Shown: positions 42,962 to 44,762 of the stretch, piece by piece | How the letters are laid out: every line of letters begins with the position of its first letter | Position numbering within the stretch: position 1 is the stretch's first letter | Origin: Candidatus Hydrogenedentota bacterium | GTDB lineage: Bacteria > Hydrogenedentota > Hydrogenedentia > Hydrogenedentales > JAGMZX01 | Length of the DNA: 64,000 bases | Direction: 5' to 3' | Assembly (NCBI GenBank): GCA_029556545.1 | Contig: JAKQEQ010000193.1 | Location: forward strand, 62,001 to 126,000 | Translations under genes and position numbers: made by a program | Notes under the pieces: model-generated | Told to the model about the DNA's origin: nothing | The model's input: only the letters and a program-made list of their open reading frames with translations | Databases searched by the model: none

Positions 42962-42993
42962 AAAAAAAGAGGACTTACGTCGCCGTAAGTCCT
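42962..42993 (-). terminator. Rho-independent terminator of the disrupted tRNA-Met gene
   Basis: AGGACTTACG and CGTAAGTCCT (42970-42979, 42984-42993) form a perfect 10-base stem with loop TCGC. On the minus strand it is followed by TCTTTTTTTG (complement of 42961-42970). It lies 11 bases beyond the tRNA 3' CCA, in the correct orientation to end that transcript. Confidence 0.9.
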
Positions 42994-43004
42994 TTGATAC
43001 CAAT

Positions 43005-43049
43005 TGGTAGCGGGGGCGGGATTCGAACCCGCGACCTTTGGGTTATGAG
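43005..43049 (-). tRNA. 3' half of tRNA-Met(CAU): probable attachment-site copy, not a functional tRNA
   Basis: On the minus strand the sequence runs from anticodon loop CTCATAA through 3' anticodon strand CCCAA, variable loop AGGTC, T-arm GCGGG-TTCGAAT-CCCGC and acceptor strand to an encoded CCA. Everything 5' of the anticodon loop is missing: the bases to the right neither pair with the acceptor strand nor resemble a D-arm. The break at the edge of the anticodon loop is where many tyrosine integrases cross over. The terminator left of it shows the original tRNA gene ended here; an intact copy is expected at the other end of the island. Confidence 0.7.
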
Positions 43050-43631
43050 CACACTCGAGGGGAGTTGTCTTAACCTATTGGTTCGTCAGAAGTTGCAGCA
43101 ATAGCAACTATTTAGCTCCACGAGCTCGTGAAGTACATGTTGAACATTTGGAACATGTTTTTCAAATTCTAGGGTACAGTTTAGGGTACACAACCGCGCT
43201 ATGCTTGCCATACACCTGGAGGGAAAAGACGTATTGCGCAGCCAACCTCGCTCCGTCGCGTGATCCTGGGGGTTCTTTATTGTAGCCGTCGTGGTATACC
43301 AAGTGTTTTCAGGCCTTCGAGCCGGTTTGGCTCTAAGGAAGGATATGGTATGGATCGCCTCTCCTTCTCTCTCGTTGCATTGGTTCTGCAGCGGTTTCAG
43401 CCTCGACATAACACCCGACTTTGACTCCAGAAAGCGGAGAGTCGAATACTGCGCATACTGCGTTCGCAAATTGACGCGAGTCTTGCCACACCAACTCCGA
43501 ATGAGAAAGCGGTATAACTTCGGCTTGGTGTGTTGCTGGGTTGTGATGTGAGCCGTCAAGTTCGGCACGATACTAAGCCTTCAGTAGACCCAATGGCAGC
43601 ATTTTCTGAGAGCTTCAACCATCAATGAACT
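43050..43631. other. Gene-poor junction region at the island edge
   Basis: No convincing gene is seen on either strand. The DNA is clearly less GC-rich than to the left. It contains two copies of TAGGGTACA (43170-43178 and 43182-43190, spaced 12 bases) and repeated ACATGTT motifs (around 43133 and 43154), which could be integrase arm sites or chance. The 160-codon minus frame 43086-43568 has no recognisable domain. An integrase gene was not found here. Confidence 0.5.
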
Positions 43632-44762
43632 CTACACAGCTGATGCAGAAAGTTCAATGTTTTCAGTGCGGATGAATATTTGCGAGGCACAGCCGATCTT
43701 CACAGTGGCTTCAGCTTCAGATAACCGGCTGCCCAAGTCCGCGACGACTTCGTTCACGACCTCGGTCAAATCGACTTGCTCCAACTCCACGGGGTCCCTC
43801 CCGACCCGCGAGTACTCGAGCACGCGGTGAACCAGCCTCTGCATTCGGTGGGCACTGTCCAGCGCATTATCGAGAAAGAACCGCGCAAACTCGTCGAGAT
43901 GTTCCTGGGACTCTTCGGCGTCCCGTGCGCGAATTTCCTCGATGTAGCCGGTGATGGTCTGCAGCGGGGCCTGCAGGTCGTGCGAAACAACGCAGGCAAA
44001 TCGTTCTAGATCCTGGTTACTGCGCTCGAGTTCTTCGGTCCGCGTGCGGACCCGGTCCTCGAGTATATCGTGCGCTTTCTCCAACGCCTGCTGTGTCCGC
44101 TGCCGACGGACCACTTCCCCCCGCAGCCGTTTGTTCACGCGTGAGAGATGGATCCCCAACATAATCCCAGCAGATCCGACCAGCACACCGGCGAAAAGCT
44201 CCCATAGGATGGACGTGGCACTCCTGAGTCCTGAATGCTGGGTGAGCAACTTGACAGATTGGTTCGCGGCGAGATGGGTCTCGTTCTTGAGCGCCTGGAG
44301 GTCCAGGAGTTTGCCCCTGTATTCGCTGTCCGATTGTGGGATCTGAAGAAAGGCATCTGCTAGCGCGGCCGAACGGCGAAACAGCGCGCCTTGCCTCGTC
44401 AGGCTTTGCCGGATCTCGTCATTTGCGGTTGGCGACAGCCGGGCCAACTCGCCGGTTTCGAGGTTCACAACCACGTCGCCTCCGTGTGTCAGCGCGCGTA
44501 GTGAATGGACGAAGATGCGGCGGGTCGAAGCATAGTCCGCCTCGAATCCCTGGCAAGCCAATAGAACTTCCTGAAGATGCCGCTGGTTCAGCATCCGTTG
44601 GCGGCCTGCGATATCGAGGGCGATGGCGACGCTTTGCTGTGTGCGAAGAACCAGCATAGTGTGGGACAGGACGGTGACGATGGCGACAACGGACACGACC
44701 AGAAGGATCAGAACGCCCCTGCCGTCCTTGACCAGGCCCCGGTATATTGTCTGAGTTGACAT
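43632..44762 (-). CDS. Sensor histidine kinase lacking its ATPase domain (truncated)
   Basis: A 376-residue inner-membrane protein. TM1 is at 16-38; a PilJ-type sensor domain with DIAGRQRMLNQRHLQEV lies in the periplasm; TM2 is at 186-206. A coiled coil (210-255) leads to HisKA with phospho-acceptor His261 in CVVSHDLQAPLQTITGYIEE and a dimerisation helix ending VLEYSRVGRDPV. Normal kinases then continue for over 120 residues of HATPase_c (N, G1, G2 boxes). Here the family match ends near residue 358 (EATVKIG) and the frame closes 18 residues later with unrelated sequence. The protein can dimerise and sense but cannot phosphorylate itself. The break near 43690 probably arose together with the tRNA-linked rearrangement. 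Confidence 0.8.
   Translation of the reverse strand: MSTQTIYRGLVKDGRGVLILLVVSVVAIVTVLSHTMLVLRTQQSVAIALDIAGRQRMLNQRHLQEVLLACQGFEADYASTRRIFVHSLRALTHGGDVVVNLETGELARLSPTANDEIRQSLTRQGALFRRSAALADAFLQIPQSDSEYRGKLLDLQALKNETHLAANQSVKLLTQHSGLRSATSILWELFAGVLVGSAGIMLGIHLSRVNKRLRGEVVRRQRTQQALEKAHDILEDRVRTRTEELERSNQDLERFACVVSHDLQAPLQTITGYIEEIRARDAEESQEHLDEFARFFLDNALDSAHRMQRLVHRVLEYSRVGRDPVELEQVDLTEVVNEVVADLGSRLSEAEATVKIGCASQIFIRTENIELSASAV

Follow-up and report, generated by a model that had tools for sequence, protein, structure and literature searches.

The anatomy of islands lodged in tRNA genes has already been described, both by Islander (PMC4383910) and in a paper on tRNA fragments. Sites centred on the anticodon account for 2083 of the 3919 islands of the Islander collection (PMC4383910). 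Crossover within the anticodon loop is the pattern of Islander class A (PMC4383910), for which a review of archaeal integrases is also cited (PMC8371274). Here we describe a locus from a Candidatus Hydrogenedentota MAG (G000), which consists of 195 contigs and has an estimated contamination of 4.3%. The window, the whole stretch of 64,000 nucleotides that was analysed, is G000:C134:62001-126000, within a contig of 295 kb. It contains a tRNA fragment that in all likelihood represents attR, the distal attachment site, of an integrative element of ~85 kb, placed by a tyrosine integrase in an initiator tRNA-Met gene.

The fragment is the minus-strand reading of window positions 43005-43049, CTCATAACCCAAAGGTCGCGGGTTCGAATCCCGCCCCCGCTACCA, a 45-nt tRNA 3′ half that runs from the anticodon loop to the CCA. 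It begins with CTCATAACCC, its first base being the first base of the anticodon loop, and ends with CGCTACCA. An earlier sequence-only reading had reported that the minus strand keeps only this 3′ half of a tRNA-Met(CAU), followed by its own terminator and bordered on the right by DNA of lower GC content. Both its coordinates and its description proved exact. The terminator consists of a stem-loop (42970-42992) and a minus-strand T run at about 42961-42968, and the GC content per kb falls from 0.57-0.71 left of 43 kb to 0.53-0.62 right of it. ARAGORN detected no full tRNA anywhere in the window, so the 5′ half is truly absent there; an Rfam search of the window gave no match. The features of the window are collected in Table 1.

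Table 1. Features of the window, in window coordinates
Feature	Position	Strand	Basis
Terminator of the displaced tRNA half	42961..42992	-	Stem 42970-42992 and T run
Displaced 3′ half (45 nt) of initiator tRNA-Met(CAU), very probable island attR	43005..43049	-	Sequence, genome search
Part of the island within the window	43050..64000		Continues to C134:190,043, with intact tRNA and integrase there
Short AACATG-type repeats, island side of the fragment	43134..43159		Sequence; similar repeats in relatives
Tandem repeat TAGGGTACAGTTTAGGGTACACA	43170..43192		Matched at the other end, C134:189972-189994
Rrf2-family regulator, cargo	44962..45387	-	Protein scan
Cytochrome c552 nitrite reductase (NrfA family), cargo	46847..48274	-	Protein scan
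Hybrid-cluster (prismane) protein family, cargo	49171..50835	-	Protein scan
Flavodiiron-type protein (ODP metallo-beta-lactamase and flavodoxin domain), cargo	50903..52072	-	Protein scan
RND efflux pump (AcrB/AcrD/AcrF family), cargo	54563..57619	-	Protein scan
HlyD/CusB-type membrane-fusion protein, cargo	57616..58971	-	Protein scan

Two motifs flank the fragment. AACATG-type repeats, present here on the island side, have similar counterparts (AACATG/ACATGG) next to the displaced tRNA half in relatives and may be sites for accessory proteins. On the other side, the fragment's terminator is followed by GTGCCCAAAATGG, which is similar to what follows tRNA-fMet in other Hydrogenedentota. This resemblance suggests that the DNA left of the fragment is probably native host DNA; we treat the motif as supportive rather than decisive, because another MAG of the phylum (G048) has it on the integrase side.

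A whole-genome search with the fragment identified a second copy at C134:190000-190092, on the same strand and the same contig, 85 kb to the right of the fragment and beyond the window. As the two are 89% identical over 92 bases (E = 4.6e-28), the fragment is not a chance resemblance. According to ARAGORN, this copy lies within an intact tRNA-Met(CAU) at C134:190044-190120 (minus strand). A second copy inside an intact tRNA-Met was what the sequence-only reading had predicted, and it was found on the predicted side and in the predicted orientation. The intact tRNA has a GGG:CCC anticodon stem and a C·T mismatch at 1:72, which mark it as an initiator tRNA; with these features, read from the sequence of the intact copy, the earlier assignment to tRNA-Met is refined. 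The tRNA half is present in two copies only on the contig. Identical blocks of 19, 11, and 30 bp are shared by the two ends; the blocks are separated by compensatory changes in the T stem, and compensatory changes in the terminator stem follow.

Elsewhere in the genome, a second initiator-like tRNA-Met(CAU) at C78:40-113 (L005:40-113) has no encoded CCA and carries a T·T mismatch at 1:72, and the genome may hence have an initiator tRNA other than the targeted one. We also noted a third tRNA-fMet 3′-end remnant at C139:52165-52235 (L021:12165-12235). It comprises only the CCA, the terminator and a GTGCCC motif, and directly abuts repeats that resemble the end of an IS21-type insertion sequence.

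The island bounded by the two tRNA copies extends over C134:105,050-190,043 (~85 kb), or from 43,050 to about 128,043 in window coordinates, in agreement with the earlier proposal that it runs from about 43050 past 64000. The comparison of GC content in 1-kb windows, suggested in the same reading, revealed a compositionally distinct segment: mean GC is 0.570 between the copies (84 windows) versus 0.644 in the flanks (208 windows; Mann-Whitney p = 3e-36). Change points in GC content fall at 104.5-104.7 kb and 188.4-188.5 kb of the contig, at most 0.6 kb from the left tRNA copy and about 1.6 kb from the right one.

An integrase had been anticipated near either end. The last gene before the intact tRNA, 148 bp inside that end, encodes a tyrosine integrase of 390 aa (PF00589; C134:188724-189896, minus strand). 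Its reading frame is intact, and the protein keeps both Arg motifs (GLRREE and YRHT), the conserved Lys and the Tyr (HYA). Throughout the family, Leu takes the place of the box-II His (in rare cases Gln or Asp/other does), and GN stands where GH would be expected ahead of the catalytic Tyr. Because the His-to-Leu change is family-wide, the putative integrase probably tolerates it. Just inside both ends of the island lies a tandem repeat, TAGGGTACARTTTAGGGTACACA, in positions given in Table 1; TTTAGGGTAC is found nowhere else on the 295-kb contig. These repeats are probable integrase arm sites. Taken together, the intact second copy, the GC contrast, the integrase and the shared tandem repeat identify the segment, on sequence grounds, as a tRNA-targeted integrative island of the textbook kind.

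We propose the following course of events. An attP borne by the element would have contained a duplicate of the tRNA 3′ half along with its terminator. The integrase would bind the tandem arm repeats and a core formed by the anticodon stem-loop, and would recombine attP with the anticodon-loop region of the host initiator tRNA-Met gene. The element's 3′ half would then rebuild an intact tRNA beside the integrase, and the host's own 3′ half would end up 85 kb away, at the site in the window. The small HTH protein encoded beside the integrase probably serves as the excisionase. Once excised, the circle would replicate like a plasmid through Orc1/Cdc6, ParA and an archaeo-eukaryotic-type primase, and it may be capable of transfer.

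As had been expected of the island, it bears genes for nitrosative stress and efflux: within the window, we detected NrfA, hybrid-cluster and flavodiiron proteins and RND efflux (Table 1), together with a lactate/malate dehydrogenase. To the right of the window lies an ABC-exporter block, identified by its sequence and by a match in G004, another Hydrogenedentota MAG. A defence cluster (C134:132143-143965) encodes a type IIG restriction-methylase, an AbiJ-like protein, and the PADLOC candidates PDC-M11A and PDC-M18A; also in this cluster are a helicase remnant and a PDC-S68 that looks truncated. At C134:148752-152027, three genes for tyrosine recombinases lie side by side and resemble a recombinase-in-trio (RIT) element. 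The island has 87 ORFs, called with a home-made script, and part of them were scanned; among the proteins scanned, there were no prophage structural or packaging genes and neither a relaxase nor a type IV secretion channel, just a weakly TraD-like ATPase. In G048, an Rrf2-like regulator gene is followed by one for an apparent ScdA/Ric-type iron-sulphur repair protein (C37:93883-95697, read from sequence), suggesting that nitrosative-stress cargo recurs in related elements.

Toward the integrase end, at 162-190 kb of the contig, the island carries a core of genes for Orc1/Cdc6, a MoxR-type AAA ATPase, a weakly VWA-like protein, GP88, an ArdC N-terminal domain, a TraD/HerA-like ATPase, an AEP-TOTE primase and the HTH protein; parA lies at 146 kb. 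These genes suggest plasmid-like replication of the excised circle. The archaeal-type Orc1/Cdc6 gene (C134:162321-163586) has counterparts in G048 (C37:88152-89390) and G004 (C6:121107-122345). The protein belongs to the Orc1/Cdc6 family, as it scores 252 bits against TIGR02928 (cut-off 181), matches an archaeal Cdc6 structure at 5e-48, and shows an AAA+ core, a lid and a C-terminal winged helix. For two other core proteins, AlphaFold predictions from three-sequence alignments had a mean pLDDT of 34 (the TraD/HerA-like ATPase) and 57 (a protein of 562 aa), too low for use. Upstream of cdc6, an AT-rich gap (48% GC; C134:163587-164360) is a candidate replication origin; it contains a CCACAGGAAA-TTTCTC motif that is common to G004, and there is no clear iteron array among the repeats upstream of cdc6.

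How rare such a gene is in bacteria we judged from four sets only, namely the phylum, relatives of Geomonas, 14 control genomes and a set of plasmids. Four of the 68 Hydrogenedentota genomes, this one included, have Orc1/Cdc6, and in one of the four it is a C-terminal piece only. None of 117 relatives of Geomonas exceeded the TIGR02928 cut-off, showing just a weak AAA+ background, and three of the 14 controls passed it. A scan of viral contigs for Orc1/Cdc6 returned no relatives.

Possibly, the segment is no longer mobile, being either an island that has decayed and become fixed or a composite built from several insertions. We regard this reading as doubtful, though it is the most serious of those that compete with ours. 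The non-canonical catalytic positions of the integrase, the three other tyrosine recombinases inside the island, the lack of transfer genes among the proteins scanned and the related element of G004, which is rearranged and has lost this integrase, are all in its favor. However, the integrase frame is intact and the unusual positions are those of its whole family, both ends are preserved with their matched repeats, and the contig holds only the two copies of the tRNA half. Since immobility and past integration are compatible, a fixed island rivals present mobility only.

Relatives of the integrase occur at 38 named genome loci, in Hydrogenedentota, Geobacterales/Desulfuromonadales, Planctomycetota, one Nitrospirae MAG and a few others, and genome searches reached further ones. 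Viral contigs yielded no relatives of the integrase, and scans of plasmids and phages gave distant matches only (25-29% identity among the matches listed). In 21 of the 38 loci, the integrase gene has an intact tRNA-Met(CAU) about 100-260 bp upstream, and the family adjoins tRNA-fMet in nearly all readable full-length cases. Assembly gaps break the upstream tRNA at L068 and L084, and only the last few 3′ bases of the tRNA remain at L088. At L080, L087, and L053 (G052), the integrase is preceded by a tRNA 3′ half and this in turn by the end of another element; we read these loci as tandem-array junctions. At L090 and in several truncated members, the upstream sequence is too short or the integrase incomplete for a reading of the tRNA, and a distant match, L095, is near a tRNA-Arg.

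In readable cases, a tandem repeat is present between the tRNA and the integrase gene. Its period is mostly 12 bp and its sequence varies (TGTACCCTA, TGTACACAAA, TGTTACTT, TGTAGTAA, and others), and the repeats at the two ends of one element match, as with TGTACACAAA in G070 and TGTAGTAA in G074. At a separate locus in G048 (C14:39077-39140; L127:10077-10122), a tRNA-fMet 3′ half stands before arm-like repeats and the opening codons of a decayed integrase, an arrangement that marks it as a putative tandem-array remnant. At C6:190009 in G004 (within L138) there is a shorter tRNA-fMet fragment; the element-end sequence that precedes it is nearly identical to that at the G048 C14 locus, and unrelated sequence follows.

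From our pair of copies, the exact crossover cannot be fixed, because they differ in the T stem and the terminator stem. We place it in the anticodon loop because fragments across the family start there. In eight Geobacterales and other genomes, further tRNA copies begin at nt 32-33 of the tRNA (one at nt 35), which is the 5′ edge of the anticodon loop and the start that an anticodon-loop crossover predicts. In four genomes, the fragment and the intact copy are on the same strand of one contig, 27.5, 19.7, 11.7, and 6.8 kb apart, and in most of these genomes the island side of the fragment bears a repeat matching the other end of the element. Were the crossover instead located 3′ of the T arm, within the 30-bp block GCGGGGG...AAGTCC that both copies share, the element would still be real, but the intact tRNA would be wholly host-derived and the T arm of the fragment element-derived. 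Although this block is the longest identical stretch between the copies, and the intact tRNA shares its T stem with the same-genus genome G001, T-stem sequence varies freely across the phylum. Moreover, such a crossover would not require the displaced copies to start at the edge of the anticodon loop, as they do across the genomes examined. We consider it unlikely.

The sequence-only reading had also proposed that relatives lack the segment. G001, the one same-genus genome compared, has no core by DNA search, no Orc1/Cdc6 gene and no close match to the integrase, a result that concerns this one genome. We found no empty site: the island flanks are not syntenic in G001 but scattered over several contigs, and its tRNA is on an 8.8-kb contig that ends 81 bp past the tRNA.

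With an assembly of 195 contigs, some estimated contamination and both joints at a repeat, one might suspect an artefact of assembly or binning, in which the tRNA repeat led to the fusion of a foreign contig with host DNA. We hold this to be very improbable, since the copies share at most 30 consecutive identical bases and host-like GC is found on both sides of the island within one contig. In addition, two other Hydrogenedentota MAGs (G048 and G004) contain the same core, and the same tRNA-island anatomy is seen in Geobacterales, including Geomonas isolates. That the fragment is a tRNA pseudogene or stray duplication beside a local drop in GC, with no integration, has a precedent in the CCA-plus-terminator remnant without an island on C139, but it is contradicted by the correctly oriented intact partner, the integrase and the matched repeats at both ends, and its probability is negligible.

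An island integrated at the initiator tRNA gene is thus our preferred reading. Beyond the textbook island, what is unusual is the initiator-tRNA integrase family and a core with archaeal-type Orc1/Cdc6 and an archaeo-eukaryotic-type primase. Tentatively, and with somewhat less than even confidence, we propose a new group of bacterial integrative elements that would insert specifically into the initiator tRNA gene and replicate via an archaeal-type Orc1/Cdc6 together with an AEP-type primase and a ParA of their own, with an integrase family spanning several phyla and arm repeats that diverge between elements and match within each. Among open-access papers, we found none on integrative elements in Hydrogenedentota or on bacterial elements with Orc1/Cdc6, which is weak evidence of novelty.

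A single integrase family appears to recognize one initiator-tRNA half-site across several bacterial phyla while bringing its own arm repeats, which permits a direct comparison of a conserved core specificity with a diverging arm specificity. A functional Orc1/Cdc6 gene would make the island a bacterial mobile element with archaeal-type initiation of replication. For Hydrogenedentota, the island would be a mobile source of genes for nitrite/NO metabolism, efflux and phage defence.

The locus shows several of the features that Islander uses as criteria: an intact tRNA and its cognate fragment on one replicon in the same orientation, with the 3′ fragment downstream, a tyrosine integrase encoded between them, a foreign composition and a sporadic distribution. 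Like Islander islands, it has the intact tRNA at the integrase end and the displaced fragment opposite, correctly oriented, and its length is within 2-200 kb. Unlike them, it targets an initiator tRNA, belongs to one integrase family with tandem arm repeats across several phyla, and bears an archaeal-type Orc1/Cdc6 in its core.

The integrase, the adjoining HTH protein, ParA, the ArdC N-terminal domain, the variable cargo and an ATPase with a weak likeness to TraD (TIGR03743, 38 bits versus a cut-off of 366) are reminiscent of ICEs and IMEs, from which the island differs in having no relaxase or mating channel among the proteins scanned. With archaeal plasmids of haloarchaea and Methanosarcina, it shares an initiator of the Orc1/Cdc6 family; the best 25 of 386 plasmid records matching Orc1/Cdc6 are all archaeal. 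However, the matches listed are 26-30% identical, and here the gene is carried by a bacterial integrative element that targets a bacterial tRNA. A related core is found within the phylum. On contig C37 of G048 the core genes are collinear and on C6 of G004 they are largely in the same order, though rearranged, with identities of about 25-84% to the core genes of the island. Both carry different cargo and G004 lacks this integrase, but it has the ABC-exporter cargo block in common with the island, at 82-90% identity.
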